DNA of 64,000 nt from Actinomycetes bacterium (GTDB lineage Bacteria > Actinomycetota > Acidimicrobiia > Acidimicrobiales > Ilumatobacteraceae), in contig JANYKS010000117.1 of NCBI GenBank assembly GCA_025358125.1, forward strand, positions 1 through 64,000. Direction: 5' to 3'. Position 1 is the stretch's first letter; each line of letters starts with the position of its first letter. Shown here one piece after another: positions 12,826 to 58,764 of this stretch. Under the pieces are notes generated by a model, which worked only from the letters and a program-made list of their open reading frames with translations, had not been told where the DNA came from and ran no database searches. The position numbers were made by a program, and so were the translations under genes.

Positions 12826-12873
12826 GACATGCTCCTTTCGAGCAGCAATTCAACGACGCTACCTTGAACAATG

Positions 12874-15009: not shown

Positions 15010-15155
15010 CCGCAGCCGGGCACCGTTCGTTGTCGGGCCTCGGCTCGACGCCTGGTGACGATCCAGCGACTGGCGCGTCATTGTGCTCGATCCGGTTTCA
15101 GGTCTACGCTCCGTGGTGAGGAATCGACGACCAGGCCGCCGTCGAGGGGGGTGCT

Positions 15156-15809: not shown

Positions 15810-15931
15810 CCGGCTGGCTGTCACTGGCGCTGCGTTTCGACGCCGAGTCGTCGTTGATGTGAGCATGTAGGACGTAGCTGGGGTTCCACCCGGTCATCGC
15901 GTCCACCCAAGCGTTCGAAGGAGCCAATCAC

Positions 15932-16360
15932 ATGGGCCAGATCCTCGGCCAGTTCTGTATCAACGTCAGTGATCTCGAGCGATCGATCGGCTTCTGGGAA
16001 GGTGTGTGTGGTCTGCCGGTGCGAAGCCGAACCCAGATCCCCACTGCGCTCGAGGCCGTGTTGCAGGCTGACGAGGGCGGGTCACGGATCCAGCTCGCTC
16101 AACAGTTGGAGCAGACCGGACCGATCGAGATGGGGACCGCGATGTGGAAGCTCTATCTCAACACCGACGACTGCCACGCTCTGTATGACCGTTGCATCGC
16201 CGCCGGTTGCGAATCGGTGTCCGCGCCCGCCCGTCTTGATCGTTGGCCGGTGACGGTTGCGTTCATCAAAGACTTCGACGGATACCTCATCGAATTGATC
16301 GAGTACCACGATGGCACGCCGCCCGGGGTTGCGGACCCTGGCTCGACAAATCGTCGGTGA
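15932..16360 (+). CDS. VOC (glyoxalase/dioxygenase superfamily) protein
   Basis: 142 residues, one or two beta-alpha-beta-beta-beta modules. INVSDLERSIGFWEGVCGLP at the start and KDFDGYLIELIEYHDG at the end are the superfamily marks, the latter with the C-terminal Glu metal ligand. The function could be lyase, isomerase or resistance protein. It converges on the c-di-GMP gene with seven bases between the stops. Confidence 0.8.
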   Translation: MGQILGQFCINVSDLERSIGFWEGVCGLPVRSRTQIPTALEAVLQADEGGSRIQLAQQLEQTGPIEMGTAMWKLYLNTDDCHALYDRCIAAGCESVSAPARLDRWPVTVAFIKDFDGYLIELIEYHDGTPPGVADPGSTNRR

Positions 16361-16410
16361 GTTCAACCTATTTGCGGGCGGCGGCACGGTGCCGTTTCAC
16401 GGAAAACATC

Positions 16411-19119: not shown

Positions 19120-20584
19120 CGAGCCGTCCTACCTGGAGGGGTTCGGCGATCAGGCGCTCGAGCCGACCGGCCAGAGCGCGGGCCTCCTCGCTGCTCTCGA
19201 CCACCCCATACACGCCGAATCGATCCCCGCTGAGACGGACGACGAAATCGTCGGCTCGAACTGAAGCGGACGAACGTGCCGCAAATCCGATCAGGACTTC
19301 GTCGCCGGCAGCGGAACCGAGGCGGGCGTTGAGTTGGCTGAAATGATCGATGTCGACCAGGACCATGACCGATGATTCGTCGGCCCTCGCCGTTTCGAAC
19401 GCGGCGAGCAGGCTGGCGCGCCCGGCCAGACCGGTGAGTTCGTCGTAGGCGTCGGACTCGGCGAGCTTGAGAATCGGGCGGTTGACGGCCACCAGACCCG
19501 CCACCCCACCGTCATGGTCGCGCAGAATCGTCGTCAACGACTCCACCGTCAGAGTGTGGCCGTCTCGGTGCTTCTGGCGCACGGTGCCGCGCCAGACGTC
19601 GGAGCTGGACAGCTCGTCAATCGTCTCGCCGGGGGCCGTGCGCAGGTCGAGTGTGCCAAGCACATCATCGACGCGCCGACCGAGGACCTCGTGGACGGAC
19701 CACCCGTACATAGCACTCGCGGACGCATTCCAACTCGATATCCGAAAACTCTCGTCGGTGGAGATGACGGCTTCGCTGACGGCGTTCTCGAGCTGGACGC
19801 GCACGGCCTCGGAATGACGGCTCAGATGTTCCAAGCGCACGTCGTGCAAGACCGCCTGGACTGCGTTCTGCCCCGCCCACGACACCAACGCGAACGACGC
19901 GTCGACCGGCACCACATACCCCGTGAGCCGACGCAGCCTCATCGTGACGCTGTGCTCACTCAGCGGTTGTTCGCGAAGTTTGCGACGGACTGCTCTCAGG
20001 ACTGGCGCGTCCTCGGCGCTGATGAACGACGCGATCGGCACCCCGACGAGATCGACATGATTCTTGAGCCCAACCAACTGTGCCGCCGCTTCATTGACGA
20101 ACAGGATGCGAGTGCCGTCGTGGACCACCACCCCATCGGAGGCTCCACGAACGAGCGCGGCATAGCGATGTTCGGCTGCCGCGAGGTTGACGCCCTGATC
20201 GGCGCGCACGCCGACAGCCAGCAGCCGGACGAAGGCCAGGACCTGGCCGCCGGTCTCGACGTAGCGCACACTTCGCAGCTCGAACTCATTGATCGAGCCT
20301 TGGGCACGAGCGATGCGGACTCGCAGGTCGTCGAAGCGCCGATCCGCTGTCTGCGCCCCCGAGAACAGATGTCTCAATGGCGTACTCGACGAACTCTCCA
20401 ACACATCGAGGATCGACAGGCCCACGAGCTCGTGCGCTGCGAAACCGAGGTGCTCGACGGAGCTGGCACTGGCCCACATGATGCGTTGATCTTGAGTGCG
20501 CACCGGCAAACACGGTGCGGAGGCGAGCGGGAACACAAGCGACGTATCTCCCGGGCCTCCGTCGTCTCTTTGTGACCGCGTCAT
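19040..20584 (-). CDS. N-terminal part: PAS repeats and degenerate GGDEF
   Basis: ATG 20584 (MTRSQRDDGG) is preferred because longer starts would overlap the divergent lanthipeptide precursor. Two or three PAS-like domains (AALVRGASDGVVVHDG; VSEAVISTDESFRISSWN) lead into a GGDEF domain: YDELTGLAGRASLLAAFE, VDIDHFSQLN and SGDRF at the active site, where the acidic residue that follows Gly-Asp is replaced by Arg, so cyclase activity is unlikely. The true domain continues in the next frame after about 19128. Confidence 0.6.
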   Translation of the reverse strand: MTRSQRDDGGPGDTSLVFPLASAPCLPVRTQDQRIMWASASSVEHLGFAAHELVGLSILDVLESSSSTPLRHLFSGAQTADRRFDDLRVRIARAQGSINEFELRSVRYVETGGQVLAFVRLLAVGVRADQGVNLAAAEHRYAALVRGASDGVVVHDGTRILFVNEAAAQLVGLKNHVDLVGVPIASFISAEDAPVLRAVRRKLREQPLSEHSVTMRLRRLTGYVVPVDASFALVSWAGQNAVQAVLHDVRLEHLSRHSEAVRVQLENAVSEAVISTDESFRISSWNASASAMYGWSVHEVLGRRVDDVLGTLDLRTAPGETIDELSSSDVWRGTVRQKHRDGHTLTVESLTTILRDHDGGVAGLVAVNRPILKLAESDAYDELTGLAGRASLLAAFETARADESSVMVLVDIDHFSQLNARLGSAAGDEVLIGFAARSSASVRADDFVVRLSGDRFGVYGVVESSEEARALAGRLERLIAEPLQVGRLVAVDLGQIGRGLEFECPPSRPTVRTS

Positions 20585-20932: not shown

Positions 20933-23818
20933 ATGCCCACTGCTCAGCGCTCGGATCAATCACAACTCACCGGATTCCTGACGCTCGTTTGCGGTCTCAT
21001 CGATTCTTCACGCGCCGAGCTGCGTGCCAACCTCGCCGGGCTGCTGACGGCCGCCGCTCCCTGCTGCTCGTTCGACCCTCAGCAGGTCGAAGCCGCGCTC
21101 TACGCACCGCTGCCAGATCGCCTGATCCGGATGCTGAGCCGCACCCTCGTGCTCGAAATGCAGGTCGCCGATCTTCGCGGGACGCTCATCGGCGAGACAC
21201 CCGAGGAGCGATTTGCCGACTTCATCGAACGGTTGGCGACTCCGCAGGTTGCCGCCGAGATCCTTCACGAATACTCCGTACTGTCGGATCTGCTCGTCAC
21301 GACTCTCGAACTATGGGTGACGGCATCGATATCGTTCGTTCGCGATTTCTGTTGCGACTATCTCGATCTCGAAGCCCAATTTGGTGGTGACGACGGGCTC
21401 GGCAACTTGATCGACGTGGTCGGCGGAGTGGGCGACCTGCACCGTGGTGGCCGGACGGTCGTTGTCGCCGAATTCGACAGCGGAATCCGTCTCGTCTACA
21501 AGCCTCGGTCGCTCACCGCAGACGCTCACGTGCAGCAGTTGCTCGCCTGGCTGAACGAGCACGGCAGCCACGCCCCGTTGCGGACGATCACCGTGCTCGA
21601 CAAGACCGACCACGGTTGGGTCGAATTCGTCGAGGCAGCACCGAGCAGCACCCTCGCCGAAGCGCATCTCTACTATCAACGCCTGGGCGGGCTGCTGGCA
21701 GTTGCCTATGTGATCAACGCCATCGACCTCCATTTCGAGAACCTCGTCGCCAGCGGTGCGTACCCCGTTCTGGTCGACCTCGAGACCTTGTTTCATCCGC
21801 GGCTCGTCCAACTCGACGAGACCAATGCGTGGGAACGGGCCCTCGGAATGCTCAGTCGATCGGTGATGGCATCGGGCCTGCTCCCGCAACGGCTCTACGG
21901 CGGGGCGACCGACACCGGGATGGACGTCAGCGGCATCGGTGTCACCGGAGTGCAGCACACGCCGTTCGTGGTGCCGCGCTGGACCAATCGAGGATCGACC
22001 GAAATGAGAATGACGCGCGTGCACGCCGAATTCACGGTCCAACACAATCGGACCGAGGTCGACGGTGTCCCGACCGACCCGCTCTGCTTCAGCGGCGATC
22101 TCGTGGCCGGCTTCGAGTCCATCTACCGACTGTTGTGGGCGCAACGCGATCAGCTACTGATGCCGGATGGCCCGATCTGGCAATTTGCCGAGGACGAAGT
22201 TCGGGTGCTGCTGCGTCCGACGCGCAGCTACTTCCGGCTCTTGGACGAGAGCTATCATCCCGATGTGTTGCGCGACGTCGCCGACCGCGATGCGCTGTTC
22301 GACACACTGAGCAACGCTGTCGAGGTCGCACCGGCGCTGGCCCGCACGATCGATGCGGAACGCCAAGAACTTTGGCGCGGGGACATCCCGCTGTTCACCA
22401 CCACGCCGTCAACGGTCGACTTGTTCAGCTCGACGGGTACACGGATCGCGGGGGTTCTCGACGAGCCCGGCCTTGCCTTCACCCGACGTCGCCTGCTCGG
22501 TCTCGGGGAAGCAGATCTCCAACAGCAGCGATGGCTGATCCAGGCATCGCTGTCGACGCTGGCTTCCCCCTATCGGCCGAGCGGCGCCGCCGATCGTTCC
22601 GGTCGCAATGCTGCGCCGGCGACACCGGAGAGGCTTGTCGCAGCCGCTTCGGCAATCGCCGATCGACTCATCGAAAGCAGGATCGACGGCGACAACGACG
22701 TCGCCTGGCTCGGTCTGAGCTCGCTCGGTGATGACGGCGCCCGCCTCGAACCGCTCGGCATCGACCTGTACGACGGCCTCCCCGGTGTTGCACTGTTTCT
22801 CGCTCATCTCGGGGCGATTACTGGTCGGGCGGACGCGACCCGACTTGCACGGAAAACCATCGCATCCGTGCTGCGCCGCGTCGCTGCTGGTGAGACGCTG
22901 CCATTTGTCGGCGCGTTCACCGGTGCCGGAGGGATCGTCTACACCTACGCCCATCTCGGACGACTGTGGCAGGACACACTGCTGATCGACGCAGCACACT
23001 CCATCGCAGCGGGCTTCGACGATCTGGTTGCTGACGATGTCGCCTTCGACGTCGTCGGCGGCGCCGCCGGAGGCATTCTCGGGTTGGCATCGCTGTGGCG
23101 GATTCGTCCTCACGAGACAACTCGGCGGGCGGCGATCAGCTGCGGTGATCGTCTTCTGGCTTCCTCGCAACAGCAGCGGCCGGGGTGGGCCTGGCCGTCG
23201 CCGATCCCCGGAGGCGAACCGCTGACGGGGCTGTCGCACGGGGCAGCCGGGATCGCCAGCGCCCTCATCGAGTTGACCGCCATGACCGGCGAGGACCGTT
23301 TTGCCGATGCCGCGGCGAAGGCGATCGAGTACGAGCGCTCGCTGTTCGTTCCGTCCATCGGCAACTGGGCGGATCTACGGTTCAACGCTGCGGAGCCGGC
23401 CATCTGCCAGACCTCGTGGTGCCACGGCGCTCCTGGCATCGGGCTCGCCCGCCTTCGTTCGCTGTCGAACGATCCGCCCGCCGAGATCCTTGTGGAGATC
23501 AATGCTGCGGTCGAGACCACCTTGCGGCGCGGGTTGGCGGAAAACCATTGCCTGTGCCACGGCAGCTTGGGCAACATCGAACTCCTGCTGCAAACAGGGT
23601 CGCCTGAGCTCGATCGGTGGAGCGCGGCCGTGCTCGATGATGTCGAACGAAACGGACCACGTTGTGCCACCAAGCTCGGTATCGAGACACCGGGTCTGAT
23701 GACGGGACTCGCCGGTATCGGGCTGCAGTTGCTGCGGCTGGCCTACCCAGGGCGCGTGCCGTCGGTGCTGGCTCTCGATCCGCCGTTGGCCGCCCGAAAC
23801 GGAGGGGTGCGTCCGTGA
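20933..23818 (+). CDS. lanM: Class II lanthipeptide synthetase LanM
   Basis: 961 residues from ATG 20933; an earlier in-frame start inside the hairpin region is rejected. The N-terminal two-thirds is the DUF4135 dehydratase (VYKPRSLTADAHVQ; DLHFENLVASGAYPVLVDLE), which phosphorylates and eliminates Ser/Thr. The C-terminal LanC-like cyclase has SHGAAGIAS and zinc ligands Cys830 (WCHGAPG), Cys875 and His876 (LCHGSLGN). It should convert the adjacent precursor into a lanthionine peptide. The stop overlaps the start of the next small gene. Confidence 0.95.
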   Translation: MPTAQRSDQSQLTGFLTLVCGLIDSSRAELRANLAGLLTAAAPCCSFDPQQVEAALYAPLPDRLIRMLSRTLVLEMQVADLRGTLIGETPEERFADFIERLATPQVAAEILHEYSVLSDLLVTTLELWVTASISFVRDFCCDYLDLEAQFGGDDGLGNLIDVVGGVGDLHRGGRTVVVAEFDSGIRLVYKPRSLTADAHVQQLLAWLNEHGSHAPLRTITVLDKTDHGWVEFVEAAPSSTLAEAHLYYQRLGGLLAVAYVINAIDLHFENLVASGAYPVLVDLETLFHPRLVQLDETNAWERALGMLSRSVMASGLLPQRLYGGATDTGMDVSGIGVTGVQHTPFVVPRWTNRGSTEMRMTRVHAEFTVQHNRTEVDGVPTDPLCFSGDLVAGFESIYRLLWAQRDQLLMPDGPIWQFAEDEVRVLLRPTRSYFRLLDESYHPDVLRDVADRDALFDTLSNAVEVAPALARTIDAERQELWRGDIPLFTTTPSTVDLFSSTGTRIAGVLDEPGLAFTRRRLLGLGEADLQQQRWLIQASLSTLASPYRPSGAADRSGRNAAPATPERLVAAASAIADRLIESRIDGDNDVAWLGLSSLGDDGARLEPLGIDLYDGLPGVALFLAHLGAITGRADATRLARKTIASVLRRVAAGETLPFVGAFTGAGGIVYTYAHLGRLWQDTLLIDAAHSIAAGFDDLVADDVAFDVVGGAAGGILGLASLWRIRPHETTRRAAISCGDRLLASSQQQRPGWAWPSPIPGGEPLTGLSHGAAGIASALIELTAMTGEDRFADAAAKAIEYERSLFVPSIGNWADLRFNAAEPAICQTSWCHGAPGIGLARLRSLSNDPPAEILVEINAAVETTLRRGLAENHCLCHGSLGNIELLLQTGSPELDRWSAAVLDDVERNGPRCATKLGIETPGLMTGLAGIGLQLLRLAYPGRVPSVLALDPPLAARNGGVRP

Positions 23819-23988
23819 ACGATTTAATCGAGCCACGGCACGCCATCTTTCGCGAGGACGCCCTGAGTCGTCACATGATTCGAGTTGTCGAGCCGACGGT
23901 CGAAGACCTTGATCCACCCCGCTGGCTTCCGCTTCTCTGGCTCCTCGCCATCGCCCTCGGGGGTCTCGCCGCCGCAATCCTGCGCTGA
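23815..23988 (+). CDS. 57-residue single-helix membrane protein, HlyD N-terminus-like stub
   Basis: GTG 23815 overlaps the lanM stop (GTGA). The peptide has a polar N-terminus (PRHAIFREDALSRHMIRVVE) and one membrane helix (WLPLLWLLAIALGGLAAAIL), then ends; the exporter ATG follows one base later. Phe-Arg-x-x-Ala-Leu followed by a Pro-Arg-Trp and a helix resembles the first ~55 residues of HlyD-type adaptors found in peptide export clusters, but the periplasmic part is missing. It may be a reduced adaptor or an immunity peptide. Confidence 0.65.
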   Translation: MNDLIEPRHAIFREDALSRHMIRVVEPTVEDLDPPRWLPLLWLLAIALGGLAAAILR

Positions 23989-23989
23989 C

Positions 23990-26131
23990 ATGCGCACCCC
24001 GGTACGACTCCAGGTGTCGTTGACCGACTGCGGCGCGGCGTGTCTGGCGATGGTGCTGTCGGCGCACGGACGCGAGACGCGGACCGACGAATGTGCTTCG
24101 CTCGTCGGCAGCGGGCGCGACGGTTCTAGCGCCCGCGTGCTCGTCGAGACCGCTTGCGGCTTGGGGATGTCCGCTTCCGGCCGACGAATCGACGACACGG
24201 AACAGATACGCAACATTGCATTGCCGGCTATCGCTCATTGGGGCTTCGATCACTTCATCGTCGTCGACCACGTCGGGTCACGCAGCGTCGACATCATCGA
24301 CCCGAATTACGGCCGCCGGCGGCTGAGCCGGGCAGCGTTCGACGAGGGATTCACCGGCGTGCTGCTGACCTTCACACCAGGTCCGAGTTTCGAGACCGGA
24401 CGGATCGGCGGCCGATCCTCATCGCGGCGCTATCTGCGCGCCTACGCCATGGGACAACCACGGCTGCTCGGTCAGGTGTTGTTGGCATCACTGCTCATTC
24501 AAGCCGCAGCGCTCATCGTCCCCCTCTTTTCCAAGATCATCATCGACGGGCTGACCGGCCCGGATGCCTCGTCCCGGTTGCGCTCGCTCGGGCTCGCGAT
24601 GTTGGTTCTGCTCGTCGCCACCGTCGCCCTCAATGCAGTGCGCTCGGTCTGCCTGCTGTATTTGCAGGCCCGCGCCGACACGACCCTGACGGTCGGCTTC
24701 CTCGACCATCTGCTGTCGTTGCCCTACCAGTTCTTCGAGCAGCGTGGGACGGGTGATCTGACGACTCGACTGGCGAGCAACGCCGTGATCCGCGAGACGG
24801 TGACACGCCAGACAATGACGACGATACTCGACGGTTCAACCGCAATCGGCCTGCTGACGATCGTGACGATCGAGGACCGCATGCTCGGCGTCGTGGTGCT
24901 GTGTGTCACCGCTGCGCACGTCGCGATCAGCTTGGCGCTCGGTCGCCACATACGCGAGTTGACCGTCGCCGAGGTTGCTGCCGAAGCCCGGGCGCAGAGT
25001 TATCTGCTCGAGGCGCTCTCGGGCGTGCAATCCCTGAAGGCAGCGAGCGCCGAATCGCGAGCCGTCGACCATTGGCGGTCGTTGTTCGAGCATCGCCAAC
25101 AGGCCGGGCTGCGCCGCGGGCGAGCCAATGGAGCGATCGATGTCGCGACGGCAGGGGTGCAGGCGATTGGCCCAATCGTACTGCTGTGGATCGGAGGCCA
25201 GCGGGTGCTTGCCGGCACGATGACGCCGGGAACGATGGTCGCGCTGAACGCCTTGGCACTGGCAGCGATGACGCCGTTGATCTCGGTTGTGTCGAGCGTG
25301 CAGCGCATGCAGTTCGTCGCTTCGCTGATCGAACGACTCGCTGACGTGCTCGACGCCGAACCCGAACGCACCGACGGGCGCGTGCTGTCGTGCTTCACCG
25401 GGGCGATCGAACTCGATGACGTCAGCTTCCGGTATTCGCCGCAGGGACCGTGGGCGATCGAGCATTGCTCACTCTCGATCGAGGCCGGGCACACGGTCGC
25501 CATCGTTGGACGAAGTGGTTCGGGGAAATCCACCCTGGCCAACCTGCTGCTCGTCCTGCATCAACCAACCGAGGGCACGATTCGTTATGACGGTCTGCCG
25601 GAGCGGTCATTGGATTTGAAGTCCCTTCGGCACCGTTTCGGCGTCGTCCTGCAGGAGTCGGCGTTATTCAGCGGATCGATCCGCGACAACATTGCGCTCT
25701 GCGATCCGACGATGGCGCTCGACCGAGTCGTCGCCGCTGCACAACGTGCGGCCATCCATGACGACATCGTCATGCTGCCAATGGGGTACGAAACGAACTT
25801 GGCGGATCGGGGGGCTGGGCTGTCCGGTGGTCAACGACAACGGATAGCGCTCGCCAGGGCGCTCGCCGTTCGGCCGGCCGTTCTCGTGCTCGATGAGGCG
25901 ACGAGCCATCTGGACGCGATCACCGAAGCAGCCGTCGATCGGGCGCTGCGTGCCGTCGGTTGTACACGGATTCTCATCGCCCATCGCCTCAGCACCGTTC
26001 GCCACGCTGACGAGATCATCGTGTTGGATCACGGACGAATCGTCGAACGAGGCACCCACGACTCGCTGCTGATGTCAGGTGGCCACTACGCCTCACTGAT
26101 CGCCGAACAATTCACCGACGCAGTGCGGTGA
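23990..26131 (+). CDS. lanT: Peptidase C39-containing ABC exporter (LanT type)
   Basis: 713 residues from ATG 23990. The C39 protease domain has catalytic Cys14 (LTDCGAACLAMVL), His88 (FDHFIVV) and Asp104 (IIDPNYG), and should cut the precursor after Gly-Gly. A six-helix exporter domain follows (about residues 155-440), then the ATPase: Walker A GRSGSGKST near residue 507, signature LSGGQRQR near 610, Walker B VLVLDEAT near 630. It cleaves and exports the lanthipeptide. It is the last gene of the cluster. Confidence 0.93.
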   Translation: MRTPVRLQVSLTDCGAACLAMVLSAHGRETRTDECASLVGSGRDGSSARVLVETACGLGMSASGRRIDDTEQIRNIALPAIAHWGFDHFIVVDHVGSRSVDIIDPNYGRRRLSRAAFDEGFTGVLLTFTPGPSFETGRIGGRSSSRRYLRAYAMGQPRLLGQVLLASLLIQAAALIVPLFSKIIIDGLTGPDASSRLRSLGLAMLVLLVATVALNAVRSVCLLYLQARADTTLTVGFLDHLLSLPYQFFEQRGTGDLTTRLASNAVIRETVTRQTMTTILDGSTAIGLLTIVTIEDRMLGVVVLCVTAAHVAISLALGRHIRELTVAEVAAEARAQSYLLEALSGVQSLKAASAESRAVDHWRSLFEHRQQAGLRRGRANGAIDVATAGVQAIGPIVLLWIGGQRVLAGTMTPGTMVALNALALAAMTPLISVVSSVQRMQFVASLIERLADVLDAEPERTDGRVLSCFTGAIELDDVSFRYSPQGPWAIEHCSLSIEAGHTVAIVGRSGSGKSTLANLLLVLHQPTEGTIRYDGLPERSLDLKSLRHRFGVVLQESALFSGSIRDNIALCDPTMALDRVVAAAQRAAIHDDIVMLPMGYETNLADRGAGLSGGQRQRIALARALAVRPAVLVLDEATSHLDAITEAAVDRALRAVGCTRILIAHRLSTVRHADEIIVLDHGRIVERGTHDSLLMSGGHYASLIAEQFTDAVR

Positions 26132-49163: not shown

Positions 49164-50210
49164 GTGGTGCCCCACGCTAGTGACCAACACCTCAGGCGAC
49201 TTCCGAAGGTAGAACTCCACTGCCACGTGGAAGGCGCCAGTAGAGCGACCACGATCAAGGCGCTCGCCGACCGTCACGGCGTGGCGTTGCCGGTCAGCGA
49301 TCCGGCGGATCTCTATGACTTCAGCAGCCTCAACCAGTTCCTCGGCATCTATGACATAATCTGCGCCTGCCTGCGCACGGCCGACGACTTCCGGAGGATC
49401 ACGTACGAAGCGCTCGAGGACGGCGCCAACGCAGGAGTCCGGTACCGGGAGATGTTCTTCTCGCCGGGGTTCGTCATCCGCCTCGGCGTTCCGGTCGCGA
49501 CCGTGTGGGAGGGCGTGCGGGCGGGGTTGCTGGAGGCGCGCCACGACCTCGACATCCACGCTCGGATGATCCTCGACTTCGACAAACCCACCGGACCAGC
49601 GCACGCGATGGAGATGGCTGCGTTCGCCGGCGCTCAGGATCGTGATCTACTCGTCGGCATCGGCGCCGACTCCGTCGAGCGTGACATCGATCACCGCTCG
49701 TTCGCTGCGGCGTTCGCGGAAGCCGGCCGGCTGGGGCTGCGCCGCACGATCCACGCCGGCGAGGACGGCCCTGCGGACAACATCGCCGTGGCGGTCCACG
49801 AGCTCGGCTGCGAACGCATCGACCACGGGTTCCGGCTGCTCGACGACCCGGATCTCACGGCCGAGGTGATCGACCGGCAGATCCCGCTCACGGTTTGCCC
49901 GACTTCGAACGTCGTCATCGGCAACGTGGTGGCGGACGTGGCGTCGCATCCGCTCGCCCGCCAACGCGAGCTCGGAGTGCTGGCCACGGTCAACTCCGAC
50001 GACCCGGGCATGATGCGCTTCGACATCGCCGACGAGTACGTTGCCGTCGCCCAGGCGTTCGACTACTCGTTGGATGACATGGAGACGATCAGCCTCGCTG
50101 GGATCGAAGCGTCGTGGGCGCCCGACGACGAGAAGTCGGCGCTGCGGCACCGGTTCGTCGCCGAGTTCGACGCGCTGCGCCAGGAGTACGGGCTCCCGAC
50201 GCGCGGGTAG
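49164..50210 (+). CDS. Adenosine deaminase family protein
   Basis: 348 residues from GTG 49164 with GAGGAG upstream. Zinc ligands His19 and His21 (ELHCHVEG), catalytic HAGED, IDHG, and NSDDPGMM with the metal-binding Asp. It deaminates the 6-amino group of adenosine or a related purine; the family also contains adenine and N6-methyl-AMP deaminases, so the exact substrate is open. It converges on the Ndm-like operon and may act on the same purine pool. Confidence 0.88.
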   Translation: MVPHASDQHLRRLPKVELHCHVEGASRATTIKALADRHGVALPVSDPADLYDFSSLNQFLGIYDIICACLRTADDFRRITYEALEDGANAGVRYREMFFSPGFVIRLGVPVATVWEGVRAGLLEARHDLDIHARMILDFDKPTGPAHAMEMAAFAGAQDRDLLVGIGADSVERDIDHRSFAAAFAEAGRLGLRRTIHAGEDGPADNIAVAVHELGCERIDHGFRLLDDPDLTAEVIDRQIPLTVCPTSNVVIGNVVADVASHPLARQRELGVLATVNSDDPGMMRFDIADEYVAVAQAFDYSLDDMETISLAGIEASWAPDDEKSALRHRFVAEFDALRQEYGLPTRG

Positions 50211-50283: not shown

Positions 50284-50925
50284 TCAACGACCGGGTGACG
50301 CCGGGAAGATGCCGCCCATGACGACGAACCGGGGGAGCCGCTTGATCCGGTCGCACCAGCGGCGCAGCGCCGGATAGTCGAGCAGGTCGATCCCGCCCTC
50401 TGGGGCCAGCGCAACATCGGGGAACAACGCGATATCGGCAATCGTCGGGTGGTCGCCGGGGCAGACCCAGCAACGCCCCTCGCGCTCGGTGAACCACAGA
50501 TGCTCGTCGAGGTAGCGGAACAGCCGGTGGGCACCGGCGCGGACCGACTCGATTTCGAAGTCGTAGCCGAGATTCACGTGCAGCCGCGCTGCTGAAGCGG
50601 TGTTGGTGGTGCCTTCGGCGAACAGCATCCAGCTCGCGGTTCGCCCGAGCAGCTGCGGGTCGTCGACGGGGTACCACTGGCGCGAGGTGTCGTACCTGGT
50701 CGCCAGGTACACCAGGATCGCGTGCGCGTCCCACAACACGAAGCCGTCATCGTCGAGCACCGGGATGTGGCCGAGCGGGTTGATCCGCTTGAACTCCTCC
50801 GTCTTGTGCTCCCAGCCAGGATAGAAGTCCACTGGCACTAACTCGAACGCGACGTCGAGCAAGCTCATCAACAGGCGCGCCTTGTAGCAGTTGACCGAGA
50901 GCTCGAAGTCGTACAATTTGATCAT
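50284..50925 (-). CDS. Glutathione S-transferase family protein (NdmE-like position)
   Basis: 213 residues. Thioredoxin-like N-terminal domain (MIKLYDFELSVNCYKARLLM; NPLGHIPVLDDDG; the ESxxI helix is replaced by DAHAILVYLA) and an all-helical C-terminal domain. It starts nine bases after the stop of the Rieske-reductase gene. In the Pseudomonas putida CBB5 N7-demethylase, NdmE is a GST-like protein that holds NdmC and NdmD together; the same gene trio here suggests a structural, not glutathione-dependent, role. That is inference. Confidence 0.85.
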   Translation of the reverse strand: MIKLYDFELSVNCYKARLLMSLLDVAFELVPVDFYPGWEHKTEEFKRINPLGHIPVLDDDGFVLWDAHAILVYLATRYDTSRQWYPVDDPQLLGRTASWMLFAEGTTNTASAARLHVNLGYDFEIESVRAGAHRLFRYLDEHLWFTEREGRCWVCPGDHPTIADIALFPDVALAPEGGIDLLDYPALRRWCDRIKRLPRFVVMGGIFPASPGR

Positions 50926-50934
50926 CGACCGACC

Positions 50935-52722
50935 TCACACATCGAGTACCAGCCGGGGCGACTTCGCCCTCGACACGCACACGAGCATCCGGTCGTTGCG
51001 CTGCTTCTCGGCGTCGTTGAGGTACACGTCCTGGTGGTCCGGCACGCCGTCGAGCACCGAGACGAGGCAGGTGCCGCACGCACCCTGTTGGCACGAGGAC
51101 GCCACGATCACCCCGTGTTCGGCGAGGACTTCGAGGATGGTCGTGCCCGCCGGTACGCGCAGGTGGAGGGCTGAGCGCGCGAGTTCGACGTCGAACGCCG
51201 ACGAGTCGTCGACGACGGTCGTGTTCTTGAAGTACTCGAAGTGGACCGCGTCGTCGGGCCAACCGAGTTCGGCCGCCATCTGTCTCGTCGCGCCGAGCAT
51301 CGAGCCCGGGCCGCACACGTAGACCTGACTCGAGGGACGCCGCTCGGCCAGGATCTCCTGCAGCCGCTGACCCGTTTCTGTCGGGCCGAGCCCAAGGTGG
51401 CGCACGACCCGCTCGCCGAGCAGGTCGAGCACCTCCGGGAATGCGAGATGAGCCGGGCTCTGGGCGAAGTAGTGCAGCCTGAAGTCCAACTGCGCGTGCC
51501 CGAGCGCCTGGGCCATCGCGATCAGCGGCGTGACGCCGATGCCGCCTGCGATCAGAATGGTCGTCGCGCGGTCGCGGCGTAGCGGGAAGTTGTTGCGCGG
51601 CTCGGAGATCGCCAACACGTCGCCTTCGCGGATGCTCTCGTGGAGCGCCTTTGAACCGCCGCGCGAATCTGGCTCCAACTTGACACCGATGCGGTACCGG
51701 ACGACGTCACCCGGACCGTTGGTCAGAGAGTATTGGCGGACCAGGCCATTGGGCAGGTGCACGTCGATGTGCGCGCCCGGCTGAAACGCTGGCAGGCGCT
51801 CACCGATCGACTCCAACTCGAACCCGGCGATTCCGTCGGCAGTCGCCCACTTGCGAGCGACGACAACACGAAGTGGCGCGGTACGGGTATCAGCGGGGGT
51901 GTGCGTCGGCTCTGCTACAGGTGCCGGCGCACGCACCCGCGGCTGCATCGGCGGTGGCGGAGGCATGACCGCCGCAGCCTCCTCGACCTCATCACGCAGC
52001 GTCGACATACGCTCGTTGTGGTGACGCAGCACACCGACGACGGCATCGTCGACCGGACGCGGCACGAGTAGCCCGCGCACGACGCACGTCCGGGCGTCGA
52101 CCGGCTGGACGAAGAACACGACATTCATTTCCGCCGTACCGTCACGCGCCGTCACGACGACCGCCCGCTCGTCGCCGGACTCGACCGTGCATTCACCAGA
52201 ACTGCCCGTCGCAGTGGGGTTCGGTCGGAACCTGTAGCTGCGCAGACGCTCGGCCACCAATGCCGCAGGCGCGTGGATCGGCACCGGGCGCAGCGTCAAT
52301 CCTTCGTCGCCGAACAGCGCGACCTGCGCCACGTCGCCGAGCGGCTCCTCGCCCGACCAGACCAGGCCGTAGCGCTCCACGACTGGAAACGTCGTACAGC
52401 AAATCGTTCGCGCCGGGGCGTCGGCAGGATGGGCGGGGATGTATGTGCATCCGGCCGACCTGCTGGCATAGCGCCACCCGTGGTACTGGCATTTCAGCTC
52501 GGCCCCGTCGTTGAGGCCGATTGACAACCGCACGCCTCGGTGGAGGCAGCGGTCTTCCCACACGTTGACGTACCCGTCGTCGGCACGCCACACGGCAAGC
52601 TCTCTGCCGAGCAGCTTGGTGTGGTATGTGTGGCGAAACGGCAGGTCTTCGCTCGAGGCGATCGGAAACCAGGAGAAGGCTGCGTCCAGCATCGGCGCCG
52701 CGGCAATGCCTTCGTCGTTCAT
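50935..52722 (-). CDS. Rieske domain fused to phthalate-dioxygenase-type reductase (NdmD-like)
   Basis: 595 residues from ATG 52722, which shares its A with the TGA of the upstream oxygenase gene. An N-terminal Rieske domain has Cys59-x-His61 and Cys78-x2-His81. A spacer follows, then a reductase: flavin motif RQYSLTNGP, NADH motif GGIGVTPLIAMA, and a plant-type [2Fe-2S] domain with Cys544, Cys549, Cys552 and Cys582. Ordinary reductases lack the Rieske part. NdmD of P. putida CBB5 has this order and about this length. It should pass electrons from NADH to the Rieske-less oxygenase beside it. Confidence 0.88.
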   Translation of the reverse strand: MNDEGIAAAPMLDAAFSWFPIASSEDLPFRHTYHTKLLGRELAVWRADDGYVNVWEDRCLHRGVRLSIGLNDGAELKCQYHGWRYASRSAGCTYIPAHPADAPARTICCTTFPVVERYGLVWSGEEPLGDVAQVALFGDEGLTLRPVPIHAPAALVAERLRSYRFRPNPTATGSSGECTVESGDERAVVVTARDGTAEMNVVFFVQPVDARTCVVRGLLVPRPVDDAVVGVLRHHNERMSTLRDEVEEAAAVMPPPPPMQPRVRAPAPVAEPTHTPADTRTAPLRVVVARKWATADGIAGFELESIGERLPAFQPGAHIDVHLPNGLVRQYSLTNGPGDVVRYRIGVKLEPDSRGGSKALHESIREGDVLAISEPRNNFPLRRDRATTILIAGGIGVTPLIAMAQALGHAQLDFRLHYFAQSPAHLAFPEVLDLLGERVVRHLGLGPTETGQRLQEILAERRPSSQVYVCGPGSMLGATRQMAAELGWPDDAVHFEYFKNTTVVDDSSAFDVELARSALHLRVPAGTTILEVLAEHGVIVASSCQQGACGTCLVSVLDGVPDHQDVYLNDAEKQRNDRMLVCVSRAKSPRLVLDV

Positions 52723-53660
52723 CACGCGGCCCCGTCGGCGGCGGGGATCACCCCGTACGTGAGTCCCATCTCGCTCAACCAGCGACGGTAGGCGATGGCG
52801 CTCTTGTCGGCGCGGATCGGGGTCTCGGCGATGGGTGACAGCGGCAGTCGCCTGGGTACCTGGTTCTCCAGGATCGGCTTGTCCTGGGAGAAGATCCCGA
52901 GCTGAAAACGACGGATCTCGGTGTCGGTGCTGATCGGGTCGACGACGCACAACAACATGTTGGCCCGCACGGCCTCCTCGCCCATCGGCTGGAGGAAGAG
53001 TCCGATCACGTCCCGTCGCGACTCGTCGAACGGGCACGACTTGTAGAGGATCGTGCAGTAGGGATGTGGCACCCGGTAGGTGTAGTCGGTCATCGCACTT
53101 GCCGAGGAACCCGGTGCGGCCTTCGGTTGGGGAAACCGACACCCCGTCGCCCACACCTCCCCGTCGACGACGTCGACGCGGTAGTCGACCACCTCGGTGT
53201 GCGGTTCGGCACCGAGCACGCCGGCGTGCACGAACGGAAAATGGCCCATGTCGAGAAAGTTCTCGACCGCCCGAGGGGCTGACGTCGCGATCCCGATGGT
53301 TGCCGCGTTGAGGACCCGTCGATCGGGTTCATCGGCCTCGGGGATCGCGAACAGTGGCTGTGGATCACCGAGGGTGGTCCACAGGTATCCGTAGCTGACC
53401 TGTGTGGGCAGGCCAGCAGGTGGTGTGGCCGGCAGCGGCGAGCCTGCCGGCAAGTGCAACGCTTTCGCCGGCCACACCACCGGCTCTCCCGCATCGTCAA
53501 TTCCATAACCCAATGGCTCGCCGAGCAGCAACGTCTGGTAGGTCACGCCACGTCGAAGTTCCGCTACAGCGCTCAGTGGATGCCACTGATTCAGCGCGAC
53601 GGGGTCGGTGCAACGCTCGAACGAATCGACGATCGGGCGGGTCGACGAATTGGACCACAT
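52722..53660 (-). CDS. Rieske-type oxygenase catalytic subunit lacking the Rieske cluster (NdmC-like)
   Basis: 312 residues from ATG 53660, five bases after the permease stop. The catalytic domain keeps the mononuclear iron site Asp137-x2-His140-x4-His145 (ENFLDMGHFPFVH). The N-terminal Rieske region is shortened: HPLSAVAEL, then PAKALHLPAGSPLP and SYGYLWTTLGDP, with no Cys-x-His or Cys-x2-His. It therefore needs an outside Rieske centre, found in the next gene. NdmC, the N7-demethylase of caffeine catabolism, has the same loss. Likely an N- or O-demethylase; substrate inferred, not shown. Confidence 0.85.
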   Translation of the reverse strand: MWSNSSTRPIVDSFERCTDPVALNQWHPLSAVAELRRGVTYQTLLLGEPLGYGIDDAGEPVVWPAKALHLPAGSPLPATPPAGLPTQVSYGYLWTTLGDPQPLFAIPEADEPDRRVLNAATIGIATSAPRAVENFLDMGHFPFVHAGVLGAEPHTEVVDYRVDVVDGEVWATGCRFPQPKAAPGSSASAMTDYTYRVPHPYCTILYKSCPFDESRRDVIGLFLQPMGEEAVRANMLLCVVDPISTDTEIRRFQLGIFSQDKPILENQVPRRLPLSPIAETPIRADKSAIAYRRWLSEMGLTYGVIPAADGAA

Positions 53661-53665
53661 GGCCG

Positions 53666-54598
53666 TCAGCGCTGCTCTCTGAAGTACGGCGTGGCAAGCG
53701 CCGCCGGCGGTGTCGTCGCTCGACGAAACCGCTTGAACACCGCAGGCGCGGCGATTAATAGCAGCGTGACAACGTACGGGAGGAAGTTGAGCACCGGTGC
53801 CGGCAGGCTCCATCCCTGTTCCTGGCCGATGAAAGACAGGGCCCGCATCAGCCCGAACAACAACGCCCCGAGAACCAACCAGCCAGGGCGCCACGCGGCG
53901 AAGATCACCACGGCGAGCGCGATCCAGCCGCTGCCGGCAACAAGACCTGGCGCCCATCCGGGAGTGAACGACATCGACAGCGCTGCGCCGCCGGCGCCGG
54001 CGATCGCGCCACCGATGAGAGCGTAGAGAAAGCGCATCCCCATGACATTGACGCCCATTGCGTCGGCCGCGGCCGGGTTCTCACCGACGGCGCGCAGGTT
54101 CAATCCATGACGCGTGCGATAGAGCAGGAAGCTCACCAGCAGAGGAATGACCGTGTAGGCCGCGAACACGAGCGGATCGTGGACGAACAACGCCTTGCCG
54201 AAGCCGCCGAGCTTGGACAGGCCGGGCACCTCCCAGGCCACGAACCGGGCCGACATCGGCTTACCGGAGAACCCGGCGCCGAGGTGGTTGGCCATGCCGG
54301 TTCCGAACAGCACCAGTGCCAACCCGCAGAGCACCTGGTTGGCCCGGCAGACAACGGTGGCCATTGCATAGATCGACCCCATGAGTGCGCCGCCGGCCAT
54401 TGCCGCGAGCAAGCACAGCCAGACGCTCGAGGTTGACGAGGCGGCGATCACCGCGGAGACTGCGCCGATGGCCACAAAGCCTTCCAGCCCGAGGTTGAGC
54501 ATTCCGGTGCGTTCCATCAGCAACTCGGCGCTGCCGGCGAGGACGATCACCGCGCCGGAGTCGATCGCGGTACGCGTCGCCGAGAAGACGATGTTCAT
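53666..54598 (-). CDS. ABC transporter permease (NupQ/YufQ-like)
   Basis: 310 residues from ATG 54598, overlapping the previous permease stop (ATGA). Eight or more membrane helices; ERTGMLNLGLEGFVAIGA and NLRAVGENPAAADAMGVNV are signatures of the second permease of BMP-type nucleoside importers. It forms a heterodimeric channel with the upstream permease. Confidence 0.92.
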   Translation of the reverse strand: MNIVFSATRTAIDSGAVIVLAGSAELLMERTGMLNLGLEGFVAIGAVSAVIAASSTSSVWLCLLAAMAGGALMGSIYAMATVVCRANQVLCGLALVLFGTGMANHLGAGFSGKPMSARFVAWEVPGLSKLGGFGKALFVHDPLVFAAYTVIPLLVSFLLYRTRHGLNLRAVGENPAAADAMGVNVMGMRFLYALIGGAIAGAGGAALSMSFTPGWAPGLVAGSGWIALAVVIFAAWRPGWLVLGALLFGLMRALSFIGQEQGWSLPAPVLNFLPYVVTLLLIAAPAVFKRFRRATTPPAALATPYFREQR

Positions 54599-55731
54599 GC
54601 CGGTTCCTGCGCTGAGGCGAAATGGGTGTTCGACATCTTCGCTTCTTGCGGAACCGGTGCCATCGGCTCGGGTGCCGCCCGGCTCAGCCGATACCGGGTG
54701 GCGATCTCGGCGACACCGACGATGAGCAGGATCATTCCGCACACAGCGAACATCAGGGCCACCGACAAACCGCGGGTCTGCGCCGCGATCCCGCTCCGCA
54801 ACAGGAATGCGATGAACAGTCCGACGAGCAAGAGCGCCAGTGCGCTCGCCCCGGCGAGAGCCGCCACGATGAAGCCGAAGAAGCCGTACTGGTTGGAGAA
54901 CGAGACCGACAGGCGGTGAACGGCGCCAGTGAGTTGGATCATTCCGCCGAGACCCGCTACTGCCCCGGAGAGCATCATCACCCCGACGATCCGTCGCTTC
55001 ACCGGGATTCCCGCGAACTCGGCGGCACGCGGGTTGCCGCCGGTCATCTCCACCTCGTAGCCCCACCGGCTGGAGCGGAAGACGACGAACATGACGATCA
55101 CCAGCACCACAGGAACCAAGAAGCCCCAGTTCAATGTCGTCGAACCGAAGAAACCGGGCAGCTTGGCATTCACCCGTTCGGACGCGTTCGTGACGGCTGC
55201 GACGCGATCTTTCCAGATATCGGTTGAGAACCACACCAACATCTGCTGAGCGACGAACGTGAGCAGCAGGGTGGTGATCACCTCATTGACATCGAAATAC
55301 GCCTTGAGCAGCGCTGGGACCAGCACCCACAGCGCACCGGCAGCCATCCCGGCGAGTGCCATCAACAGCAGCTGCAGCCACTGCGGTCCGCCTACCTTCA
55401 AACCGACACCCGTTGCCGCCCAGCCGCCCATCAGGAACTGGCCTTCGACACCGATGTTCCACACACGGATGCGGAACCCCAGCGCGACCGCTACTGCACA
55501 GATCAGGATCGGAGTGAGGATGATCAGCGTCTCTTGAAAGTTGCTCCAATTCCCAAACGTGCCCTTGATCGATTCGCCGGCGATGTCAGGGGCGGATCGT
55601 CCGGTGAGCTGGAACACAGCGAGTGCCCCGAGGACGGCAACGACGACTCCTGCGGTGCGTGTACCGACCGACCGTGCGGCGGACACGTCGAGTCGCCGCT
55701 CGAGTCGCCACCCTGCCGACGAGGTACTCAC
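54595..55731 (-). CDS. ABC transporter permease (NupP/YufP-like)
   Basis: 378 residues from GTG 55731, overlapping the ATPase stop. RVWNIGVEGQFLMGGW and MTGGNPRAAEFAGIPVKR are the signatures of the first permease of BMP-type importers. A short hydrophilic tail (APEPMAPVPQEAK) reaches into the next gene start. Confidence 0.92.
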   Translation of the reverse strand: MSTSSAGWRLERRLDVSAARSVGTRTAGVVVAVLGALAVFQLTGRSAPDIAGESIKGTFGNWSNFQETLIILTPILICAVAVALGFRIRVWNIGVEGQFLMGGWAATGVGLKVGGPQWLQLLLMALAGMAAGALWVLVPALLKAYFDVNEVITTLLLTFVAQQMLVWFSTDIWKDRVAAVTNASERVNAKLPGFFGSTTLNWGFLVPVVLVIVMFVVFRSSRWGYEVEMTGGNPRAAEFAGIPVKRRIVGVMMLSGAVAGLGGMIQLTGAVHRLSVSFSNQYGFFGFIVAALAGASALALLLVGLFIAFLLRSGIAAQTRGLSVALMFAVCGMILLIVGVAEIATRYRLSRAAPEPMAPVPQEAKMSNTHFASAQEPA

Positions 55732-57260
55732 GCTGACTCCTCGTCCTGGCCGCCCATCAACATCCCGATCCGCTGCCGGTCCGCTGCATCGGCCGCGAAC
55801 TCACCGCGGATCTGCCCGTCGTACATCACCACCACGCGATCGGCGAGACGGAGGATCTCTTCGAGGTCGTCGGAGATCAACAGCACCCCGCAACCGGCGT
55901 TTCGACGGTCCAGCAAAGCCTGATCGACCTCTGCGGCAGCGTGAACGTCGAGTCCACGCGTCGGGTGCACGGCAACGAGCAGCTTCTCGGCGACCAATGC
56001 CTCTCTGTGGGCGACAAGTCGCTGCTGATTCCCGCCGGAGAGCTGGGCGATTGGCGCCGCCGCGTTGCGCACCTGCACCCGCGCCTGTCGCACGAGGTCG
56101 TCGGCGAACCCGCGGACCGCACCACGTCGAAGTGAGAGCCGGCTGCTCAGCGCGTTGCCCCGGTAATGACGCAGCACAGCGTTGCGACGCACGGAAGCCG
56201 ACGCAACGAGGGCCATCCCGATCCGGTCCTCTGGCATGTGTCCGACGCCGGCTCCACTGAACTGAGCAGGTGGCCGCCCGGTGACGTCCTTCCCGGCGAT
56301 CAGCACCTTGCCGGCTTCGACTCGTCGAAGCCCCGTGATCACCTCGGCCAGCTCGCTCTGGCCGTTGCCGGACACGCCGGCAACACCCACGATCTCCCCG
56401 CCCCTCACGCTCACATCGATCGCTCGAAGCGCCGGCAGACCACGGTTGCTGGTGGCGCTGACACCGACGAGCTCGGCCACCACCTCGCCGCACGCCGAAG
56501 AAGCGCTCCGCGCAACGACCACCGACTCGGCGCCGGTCATCATCGTTCCGAGCTCGCGCACCGACACGTCGGCAGTGTCGCACGAGCCAACGACTCTTCC
56601 GCCGCGCAGCACTGTGACGCGATCCGACACCGCCTTGACCTCACGCAGCTTGTGGCTGATGAACACGACGGTGCGGCCCTCACTGACAAGGTTGCGCAGG
56701 ATGGCGAACAGCTCGTCGGCCTCAGCATCGGTCAGCACGGCAGTTGGTTCGTCGAGGATGAGGACCTGCGCGCCCCTCGCGAGCGTACGCAGAATCTCGA
56801 CGCGCTGTTGCTCGCCGACCGACAGCTGCCAGATCCGCGCACGGGGGTCGACCGTGATACCGAACTGTCGGCTCAGTTCGTCAGCGCGGTCGGCGAGCTG
56901 GCGGCGCGACGTCAGTACCGGTGTGTCGTCCCAACCGAAATGCAAATTCTCGGCGACCGTCATCGTCTCGACCAGCTTGAAGTGCTGGTGGACCATGCCC
57001 ACACCGTGGGCGATGGCTTCACCCGGGCCGCGTAGGGAAACCTGCTCACCGCCGAGCTCGATGCTCCCGCTATCGGCACGGTACAGGCCGGCGAGGATGT
57101 TCATCAGCGTTGTCTTGCCGGCTCCGTTCTCACCGAGCAGCGCATGTACCTCGCCCCGACGCAGGTCGAGATCGACCGCGTCGAGCGCGAGGAGACGATC
57201 GAACCGCTTGGTGATGCCGCGCAGGCGAACCGCGCAAGCAGTGCCAGTCACGCCGCTCAC
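55728..57260 (-). CDS. ABC transporter ATPase with two NBDs (NupO/YufO-like)
   Basis: 510 residues from GTG 57260, whose GTGA overlaps the binding-protein stop. First NBD complete: GENGAGKTT, LSVGEQQRVEILR, LILDEPTAVL. The second NBD is degenerate, as in this family: Walker A reads GVSGNGQSE and the signature LSGGNQQR is present, but Walker B is VAVHPTRG. It drives purine nucleoside or sugar-type importers of the BMP group. Confidence 0.92.
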   Translation of the reverse strand: MSGVTGTACAVRLRGITKRFDRLLALDAVDLDLRRGEVHALLGENGAGKTTLMNILAGLYRADSGSIELGGEQVSLRGPGEAIAHGVGMVHQHFKLVETMTVAENLHFGWDDTPVLTSRRQLADRADELSRQFGITVDPRARIWQLSVGEQQRVEILRTLARGAQVLILDEPTAVLTDAEADELFAILRNLVSEGRTVVFISHKLREVKAVSDRVTVLRGGRVVGSCDTADVSVRELGTMMTGAESVVVARSASSACGEVVAELVGVSATSNRGLPALRAIDVSVRGGEIVGVAGVSGNGQSELAEVITGLRRVEAGKVLIAGKDVTGRPPAQFSGAGVGHMPEDRIGMALVASASVRRNAVLRHYRGNALSSRLSLRRGAVRGFADDLVRQARVQVRNAAAPIAQLSGGNQQRLVAHREALVAEKLLVAVHPTRGLDVHAAAEVDQALLDRRNAGCGVLLISDDLEEILRLADRVVVMYDGQIRGEFAADAADRQRIGMLMGGQDEESA

Positions 57261-58456
57261 TTGACGCCGGTGACTCCCTCGATCGAGAAGTCGACCCTGA
57301 ACACCTCGGAGGCGTTGAGCGACTTGCCGGCAGGCACGCGCTCGGTACCACCCGCGTCCTTGATCGGCCCGGTGTACGGTTCGAACCCACCCTGGACCTT
57401 TACCTTCGCGGCGTCGCCCGCCTTTTGTGCTTCCGGCGTCACCTTGTCGCCCCACTTCGCGACATCGACACCGTTGCCCAGGTCGAGGATGGTGATGTCA
57501 TCGAGACCCTTGATCGTGCCGTCCATCGCAGCCTTGACCTGGTCGATGTAGTACTGCTTCCAGTTGAGGTCGATCGCACTGATGAACGCGTTCGGGCCGA
57601 AGCTGCGGTTGTCCCGGTTCCAGATCGCGGAATGAATGTTGCGCTTCTCAGCCACCTGCAGCACAGACGTGTCATCCATCACGTCGAACAACACGTCCGC
57701 TCCGCCATCGACGAGGGCGCTCGCTGCCTGGGTTGCCTTCGGAGGATCGAAAAACGAGTTGATCATCACCACGTTCATCGTGCAGTCGGGGCGAACGGTG
57801 CGCGCGCCCATCAGGAAGCAGTTGGTGTCGTTGAACACCGTGGACGTGGGGAACGCTCCCACGTAACCAAGCTTGCCGGTCTTCGTCGTCAGCCCCGCGG
57901 CGACGCCCATGATGTACGCGACCTTGTGGTGGGCAACGTAATACGAGTTCAGGTTCTTGTACTTGCCGATGGTGTGACCGTCGGCCTCGAGGAAGAACTT
58001 CTTCGGGAACTTCTCAACGGTCGGCGTCAGAAGGTCTGCGTACTCCGAGCAAACGATGACGAAGTCGTTCTCCTCAGCCAGCTTGTTGAACGTCTGCGTG
58101 GCCTCGGGCCCGAATGGCACCGATTCGATGTACACGGTCTTGACGTTCGGGTACGCAGCTTCGACTGCCTTGCGACCTTCGTCATGTGTGAATGTCCAGC
58201 CGTTGTCCGAGATCGGGCCGACATAGGCGAAGCCCACCTTGAAGGGCTTGTCGCTGCCGCCTCCGCTGCTCGCAGTTGCCGTGCCGGGTCCGCCTGCCGT
58301 CCCGCCCGACGTGATGCCGCTCGTCTTGGCGTCGCTGCCGCAGGCGCTGAGCACACCTGCGCCGCCGAGGAGGCTGGCGACACCTGCGGCACCGAGTTGC
58401 AGCACGCGGCGACGGCCAAGGTCGCCGGGCATCGAGGGTCGGTCGTTGATAGTCAT
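57257..58456 (-). CDS. BMP family substrate-binding lipoprotein
   Basis: 399 residues from ATG 58456 (GGGGAG upstream). A signal with three arginines (GRRRVLQLGAAGVASLLGG) and lipobox LSAC suggests Tat-exported lipoprotein. The mature domain (KVGFAYVGPISDNGWTFTHDEG) is the BMP/PnrA/Med type. Characterised BMP proteins (Treponema PnrA, Bacillus NupN, streptococcal RnsB) bind purine nucleosides. First gene of a seven-gene operon. It captures the substrate that the NdmCDE-like enzymes downstream may demethylate. Confidence 0.92.
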   Translation of the reverse strand: MTINDRPSMPGDLGRRRVLQLGAAGVASLLGGAGVLSACGSDAKTSGITSGGTAGGPGTATASSGGGSDKPFKVGFAYVGPISDNGWTFTHDEGRKAVEAAYPNVKTVYIESVPFGPEATQTFNKLAEENDFVIVCSEYADLLTPTVEKFPKKFFLEADGHTIGKYKNLNSYYVAHHKVAYIMGVAAGLTTKTGKLGYVGAFPTSTVFNDTNCFLMGARTVRPDCTMNVVMINSFFDPPKATQAASALVDGGADVLFDVMDDTSVLQVAEKRNIHSAIWNRDNRSFGPNAFISAIDLNWKQYYIDQVKAAMDGTIKGLDDITILDLGNGVDVAKWGDKVTPEAQKAGDAAKVKVQGGFEPYTGPIKDAGGTERVPAGKSLNASEVFRVDFSIEGVTGVK

Positions 58457-58509: not shown

Positions 58510-58542
58510 AACTTAACAAAACGTAAAACGTCTGTCCAGACG
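58510..58542 (-). promoter_or_regulatory. Promoter and palindromic operator of the importer/Ndm-like operon
   Basis: Minus strand: -35 TGGACA (58538-58533), 17-base spacer, -10 TAAGTT (58515-58510), 47-base leader to the ATG. CGTCTGTCCAGACG (58529-58542) is a perfect palindrome covering the -35, as expected for a repressor site. A direct repeat AAAACGT/AAAACGT fills the spacer. No regulator gene lies next to it. Confidence 0.65.
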
Positions 58543-58764
58543 CGTCAGCCGCGGCCCGAGTCGCCGGAGGCCCGCGAGCCGACGAACTCGTTTCGAACGG
58601 CTACGGCATGGTGTGCAGGAGTCGCCACGTGATCCCGTTTGACGACAAGAAAACGGCCGGCATCGAGGACCGCGGGGTGGGATCCGTCTTGCGTCGATTG
58701 ACGAAGTAGCCAACGATGGGAGCATGAAGACGAGAGCGCTCACATTCGGGTCGCAGCAGCGTTT
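58543..58764. other. Intergenic stretch between the importer operon and the GH13 gene
   Basis: With the promoter it makes up a 308-base gap. A 33-codon frame (58608-58709, plus strand) has no ribosome site and no recognisable product. I see no RNA gene. It presumably holds the GH13 promoter, but I cannot point to clear -35/-10 boxes. Confidence 0.4.

Follow-up and report, generated by a model that had tools for sequence, protein, structure and literature searches.

In a 64,000-nucleotide stretch of DNA from an Actinomycetes bacterium of the Ilumatobacteraceae (class Acidimicrobiia; assembly GCA_025358125.1, contig JANYKS010000117.1, positions 1 to 64,000 of the forward strand; hereafter the window), seven intact minus-strand genes at 50284–58456 join a BMP-type ATP-binding cassette (ABC) importer to three enzymes that resemble NdmC, NdmD and NdmE, the 7-methylxanthine N7-demethylase of Pseudomonas putida CBB5 and relatives (Table 1). 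We predict with fair confidence that this operon imports and oxidatively N-demethylates a methylated purine base; demethylation of such a base is suggested because guanine-, adenine- and adenosine-type deaminase genes and frmA/frmB neighbour the enzymes across related loci. The gene package is real and widespread, recurring in other arrangements in dozens of unrelated bacteria, and its predicted pathway is akin to caffeine breakdown.

Operon organization and NdmCDE-like enzymes

Genes, domains, motifs, linkage and relatedness were observed directly. Read on the minus strand from the binding-protein gene to the glutathione S-transferase (GST) gene, the operon junctions comprise three 4-base overlaps, a 5-base gap, a 1-base overlap (TGATG) and a 9-base gap. 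A previous sequence-only reading of the window had described this operon, with overlaps and gaps of at most nine bases, and Pfam confirmed every domain; its placing of the importer in the same transcription unit as the enzymes is likewise supported. The gene list of that reading was accurate for these seven genes and incomplete beyond them, having overlooked the adenosine deaminase (ADA)-family gene that converges on the operon end.

As also proposed there, the last three genes match ndmC, ndmD and ndmE in order and domain content. Measured against the set encoded on the caffeine-type plasmid pTmex-577K of P. putida MT178, where NdmB shares 92% identity with its CBB5 counterpart in the PDB, protein identity is 42.5% for C, 35.7% for D over its full length and 56.6% for E. 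The three-component architecture is the same: an oxygenase that lacks a Rieske cluster and has a 2-His-1-Asp site, a Rieske-bearing reductase and a GST-like third component, encoded in the order C-D-E. In CBB5, the three proteins are reported to assemble into a complex that depends on E for its solubility and activity (PMC4408171). Within the oxygenase, residues D137, H145 and D260 were invariant in alignments of 12 and 21 rows, while H140 was invariant in the former and at least 90% conserved in the latter; by likeness to Rieske oxygenases, these residues would make up the iron site, with D260 as the third ligand. The NdmD-like fusion (Pfam: Rieske at residues 17–100, NAD_binding_1, Fer2 at 516–587) belongs to a set of aligned NdmD-like proteins that all (73/73) retain the Rieske C-x-H/C-x2-H motifs and the ferredoxin cysteines.

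Profile comparison further detected a partial Rieske fold without the cluster loop in NdmC-like proteins (97% probability) and a weak likeness to the catalytic domain in NdmD-like residues 130–275 (40%, E = 3e-4). Because C thus retains a cluster-less Rieske remnant and D a faint catalytic-domain remnant, it looks as if one complete Rieske oxygenase was duplicated and the copies then decayed in complementary halves, yielding the NdmC-like and NdmD-like proteins. The predicted structure of the window oxygenase (predicted local distance difference test, pLDDT, 84) best matched SxtT (Z 29.8, root-mean-square deviation 2.5, 284 residues) and next NdmA (Z 24.0). SxtT and SxtDIOX (GxtA), its closest solved structures, differ in possessing their own Rieske cluster and in hydroxylating saxitoxin-type substrates. 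Caffeine-type NdmC also matches SxtT first by sequence, so this likeness is no argument against membership of the NdmC type.

Importer subfamily and likely ligand

The binding lipoprotein, whose N-terminus carries a twin-arginine-like RR motif and a SAC lipobox near Cys39, is nearest to the AtzT/3s99 free-base subfamily by both sequence and fold. A profile search returned AtzT (E = 6.5e-123) and 3s99 (2.6e-119) well ahead of the nucleoside binder TmpC (8e-19), and the predicted fold (pLDDT 83; residues 1–67 unreliable) gave Z-scores of 44.5 to AtzT and 43.1 to 3s99 versus 32–34 to nucleoside binders; PnrA and BmpD trailed likewise. The comparison was controlled internally with a further BMP protein encoded by this genome, on contig C82, which fell nearest to TmpC. 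The premise of the sequence-only reading that characterized BMP importers carry purine nucleosides does not hold, since adenine is modelled as ligand in the 3s99 structure, riboflavin-binding RfuA belongs to the same fold family, and AtzT was purified with guanine bound, its binding being at 110 nM for guanine and at 2.5 µM for adenine (PMC6834077).

Alignment places Trp, Phe and Ser of the window protein at the AtzT base-sandwich positions and Ser97, so that the aromatic sandwich is retained, whereas AtzT Glu165, Asn169, Asn218 and Asn220 correspond to Thr, Asp, Val and Asp, as they do in the sister clade; the Thr/Val/Asp pattern at 165, 218 and 220 is common to loci L047, L078, L079, L082 and L096. 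The ligand is likely a planar base and, because the guanine-contact residues Glu165, Asn218 and Asn220 are replaced, would not simply be guanine. Loss of these contacts counts against a guanine ligand and not against membership of the AtzT/3s99 subfamily. The importer ATPase was nearest to NCBIfam model NF047930, with a score under that model's cut-off. Elsewhere in the genome, contigs C47 and C85 hold two further BMP importers that adjoin guanine-deaminase-like amidohydrolases.

Linkage of importer, deaminase and formaldehyde genes in relatives

Among 84,980 species genomes scanned, at least 492 oxygenase relatives were identified, the best 80 of which, retrieved by the oxygenase alone, were analysed with their flanks; these loci are related to one another, and many lie on contigs that end early. 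(One neighbour protein cluster was the antisense of ndmC and was excluded.) The importer is repeatedly retained with the enzymes, beyond chance and in several arrangements: a BMP-type ATPase and permease lay within 10 kb in 44/80 loci, alongside the reductase in 70/80 and the GST in 68/80. This linkage extends widely across rhizobia, Granulosicoccaceae and Acidimicrobiia, and includes the annotated plasmids Sinorhizobium pSymA, Mesorhizobium AR02, Rhizobium johnstonii pRL10 and Qingshengfaniella. Importer and enzymes are co-directional in the window, L060, Granulosicoccaceae and L122, the importer is divergent behind a GntR gene in most rhizobia, and the two are convergent in L074, L094 and L046. 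The sequence-only reading, which knew of no described case of an importer co-transcribed with the enzymes, implied rarity; these counts and the single co-directional run on pRL10 contradict this. The seven-gene order that it had singled out for a survey recurs in part, L060 (another Acidimicrobiia) being identical from ATPase to GST and other relatives being arranged differently. In a separate survey of the class, the importer was linked in 8/10 Acidimicrobiia loci (2/10 contigs shared with the first set).

The rhizobial ndmCDE homologues (Sinorhizobium, Mesorhizobium) encode the same enzymes (C at 57–61% identity) beside the same importer type; they differ from the co-directional window operon in the usually divergent importer behind its GntR regulator and in often having two NdmC paralogues and frmA/frmB, some with guanine deaminase. 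In Sinorhizobium meliloti 1021, this rhizobial version is located on pSymA. Close oxygenases occurred in 8/395 genomes of the window's class and in none of eight other genomes of the same genus; because of this distribution, the patchy cassette fits a trait that is mobile or frequently lost.

Purine deaminases (guanine TIGR02967, adenine TIGR01178 or ADA family) were found in 20/80 loci, against about two expected if a 4.5 Mb genome holds six such genes, an expectation for which we claim no formal probability as the loci are related. The curated cut-off for guanine deaminase (TIGR02967) was exceeded, as was that for adenine deaminase (TIGR01178) in L058. FrmA and/or FrmB, which detoxify formaldehyde, were encoded in 13/80 loci, usually directly after the GST gene and above curated cut-offs in the examples tested, and frmA/frmB occur likewise on caffeine-type ndm plasmids. 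The ADA-family protein of the window scored above the TIGR01430 cut-off, and its nearest relative (support 99), in L101, also adjoins an importer and an NdmC-like gene. A second ADA lineage lies inside the L082 and L096 operons and, in L078, adjoins the NdmC-like gene; it clusters with PDB 3ou8 and 3rys. These two structures, which we take to be free-adenine deaminases, are also among the solved structures nearest to the window protein. The ADA-family gene of the window is a probable pathway partner of the operon.

Phylogeny of the oxygenase

In an oxygenase tree of 112 rows with Shimodaira–Hasegawa-like approximate likelihood-ratio (SH-aLRT) supports, the window protein clustered with those of the Acidimicrobiia loci L078, L079, L082, L096 and L087 (support 97), all five of which have a BMP importer and four an ADA-family gene. 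Caffeine NdmCs lay on another branch with the Pseudomonas p420352/Klebsiella plasmid type and also joined, with moderate support of 88, the first of two tandem alphaproteobacterial NdmC paralogues. The operon lacks a companion ndmA or ndmB, and the genome (93% complete) contained one other, distant oxygenase match at 29% identity on contig C37, where this second Rieske oxygenase is flanked by guanine-deaminase-like amidohydrolases; the contig positions of this gene group are 9780–10529, 10865–11971 and 19110–20207. The architecture of the window enzymes is that of NdmCDE, and by tree position (branch supports 88 and 90, both moderate) the oxygenase appears not to be orthologous to caffeine NdmC. 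Of the earlier comparison with Ndm proteins, architecture and identity therefore stand, whereas the implied equivalence with the caffeine N7-demethylase does not; a direct assignment to caffeine breakdown was dropped on the tree position and the absent ndmA/ndmB. The transport genes differ as well, an NCS2 symporter lying near the P. putida ndmCDE genes where the window has a BMP-ABC importer in the operon and an ADA-family deaminase alongside.

Proposed pathway and alternative explanations

Substrate class, reaction and step order are predicted as follows. The AtzT-type lipoprotein, to judge from its subfamily and fold, would capture the base extracellularly for import by the ATPase and permeases. 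The architecture suggests that electrons pass from reduced nicotinamide adenine dinucleotide (NADH) via flavin mononucleotide (FMN), the ferredoxin cluster and the Rieske cluster, all on the NdmD-like protein, and reach the NdmC-like iron site, while the NdmE-like GST protein may keep the complex assembled, a role postulated for NdmE in NdmCDE. An N-methyl group would then be hydroxylated and lost as formaldehyde, as the frmA/frmB neighbours in relatives suggest, and the freed base would be deaminated, probably by the adjoining ADA-family enzyme, to a hypoxanthine- or xanthine-type product entering purine breakdown. Because adenine-deaminase-type genes lie inside sister operons, our first guess at the substrate of the window clade is methyladenine, ahead of methylguanine or methylxanthine.

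Several observations weigh against demethylation of a free methylated purine. No frmA or frmB adjoins the window operon, and no guanine deaminase above the cut-off was found in the genome, which is 93% complete. The neighbour counts across the 80 loci are not phylogenetically independent, the guanine contacts of AtzT are replaced in the binding protein, and NdmC-type sequences are nearer to SxtT/SxtDIOX, which are hydroxylases and not demethylases, than to NdmA/NdmB. Finally, the cluster of one Acidimicrobiia sub-branch (L104, L107 and L156) includes a nucleoside hydrolase. These three loci combine the hydrolase with the importer and an NdmC-like gene and have no NdmD or NdmE nearby, hinting at a nucleoside-fed variant.

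That hydrolase is one reason to consider that the imported compound is a methylated purine nucleoside, such as tRNA or mRNA might supply, which would be demethylated as such and then deaminated by the ADA-family enzyme. The BMP family does contain nucleoside binders, and the linked gene belongs to the adenosine deaminase family; however, sequence and fold both place the binding protein in the free-base subfamily, the genome has a separate nucleoside-type BMP paralogue (C82), the structures nearest to the deaminase include 3rys and 3ou8, presumably specific for free adenine, and a nucleoside hydrolase is absent from the window and from most relatives. We consider this account unlikely: a nucleoside importer was ranked down on subfamily and fold and retained as a rival over the hydrolase of the three loci. 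Of the earlier proposal that the operon imports and demethylates a methylated purine or purine nucleoside, the methylated purine thus stands as the likely class, with the nucleoside placed lower on account of the free-base-type binding protein.

It is similarly improbable that the operon is a true NdmCDE system importing and demethylating methylxanthines, that is, a 7-methylxanthine N7-demethylase of plant alkaloid breakdown. Although the shared architecture, the identities given above and the NCS2 or BMP importers that adjoin ndm genes on caffeine-type plasmids fit this, the window oxygenase branches with other Acidimicrobiia apart from caffeine NdmC, ndmA/ndmB are missing, and xanthines would not require a linked ADA-type deaminase. 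Least probable, in our estimate, is that the oxygenase hydroxylates a purine ring (HpxD-type) or a non-purine without methyl removal. The hydroxylases SxtT and SxtDIOX are its nearest solved relatives, and the adjoining purine genes would fit ring hydroxylation equally well; yet caffeine-type NdmC itself matches SxtT first, and frmA/frmB near the enzymes, in 13 relatives and on the caffeine-type plasmids, fit a demethylase. Uptake and N-demethylation of a methylated purine base is accordingly the reading that we prefer.

Relation to known systems

Sinorhizobium and Mesorhizobium homologues of ndmCDE were listed in a 2015 review without an assigned function (PMC4408171), and a 2021 paper mentioned, in general terms, that ABC transporters lie close to scattered ndm homologues (PMC8055839). 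Our search of the literature available to us found no specific description of an importer linked to ndmCDE, none of the combined linkage to a base-type importer, a deaminase and formaldehyde detoxification, and no methylguanine demethylase. AtzB-family hydrolases for one methylated base, N2,N2-dimethylguanine, were reported in 2026 (PMC13054789), which makes it plausible that such bases have dedicated breakdown routes. The repeated linkage of importer, deaminase and formaldehyde genes offers a concrete, testable function for NdmCDE homologues annotated as of unknown function, namely the import of methylated purine bases followed by their demethylation. More tentatively, and with more doubt than belief, the combination of importer, NdmCDE-like enzymes and deaminase may be a general bacterial salvage route for methylated bases of RNA and DNA (methyladenines, methylguanines) in Actinomycetota and Pseudomonadota, from which the caffeine N7-demethylase was recruited. 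If so, bacteria would possess a dedicated pathway for the pool of methylated nucleobases that nucleic acids release, about whose breakdown little is known; the cassette would also point to the origin of caffeine N7-demethylation.

Table 1 Features of the operon and its surroundings in the window
Feature	Coordinates	Strand	Evidence or remark
BMP-family substrate-binding lipoprotein, AtzT/3s99 free-base subfamily	57257..58456	-	Pfam Bmp, 117 bits (cut-off 24.1)
Importer double ATPase	55728..57260	-	Pfam ABC_tran x2; GTG start; 4-base overlap with BMP gene
Importer permease 1	54595..55731	-	Pfam BPD_transp_2
Importer permease 2	53666..54598	-	Pfam BPD_transp_2
NdmC-like mononuclear iron oxygenase, vestigial cluster-less N-terminal Rieske fold	52722..53660	-	Pfam VanA_C, no Rieske
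Putative oxygenase iron-site motif D137-x2-H140-x4-H145	53226..53252	-	Alignments; putative third ligand D260 at 52881-52883
NdmD-like fusion: Rieske, FMN/NAD reductase, plant-type 2Fe-2S ferredoxin	50935..52722	-	Pfam
NdmE-like GST-fold protein	50284..50925	-	Pfam GST_N/GST_C
Adenosine/adenine-deaminase-family gene, convergent, 74 bases from operon end	49164..50210	+	A_deaminase, 245 bits (cut-off 27)
Dyad CGTCTG-GA-CAGACG 5' of BMP gene, possible operator (weak)	58528..58543	.	Terminator-like scan

Additional observations

The dyad upstream of the BMP gene occurs once in the window; it was not found in the relatives tested, and a conserved operator at this position was dropped. On plasmid p1 of Paraburkholderia caffeinilytica (L130), BMP importer genes (1–3297 and 22939–24036) flank the caffeine ndm cluster at several kb on either side, and an NCS2 symporter is also present; this split importer is a candidate for caffeine uptake. 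L040 (R. johnstonii pRL10, 9336–17521) and L045 (8336–16517) each show one co-directional run in which a small separate Rieske protein replaces the fusion, with an acylphosphatase upstream, then GST, an amidohydrolase and the BMP importer; no reductase gene was seen near either run. Other alphaproteobacterial loci, among them L049, L051, L054, L056, L058, L061 and L065, pair two tandem NdmC-like paralogues (at about 9.1 and 10.0 kb) with one NdmD-like and one NdmE-like gene, and L067, L071, L081 and L085 have three NdmC-like copies. Several NdmC-like paralogues per complex suggest two or more methyl positions or substrates.

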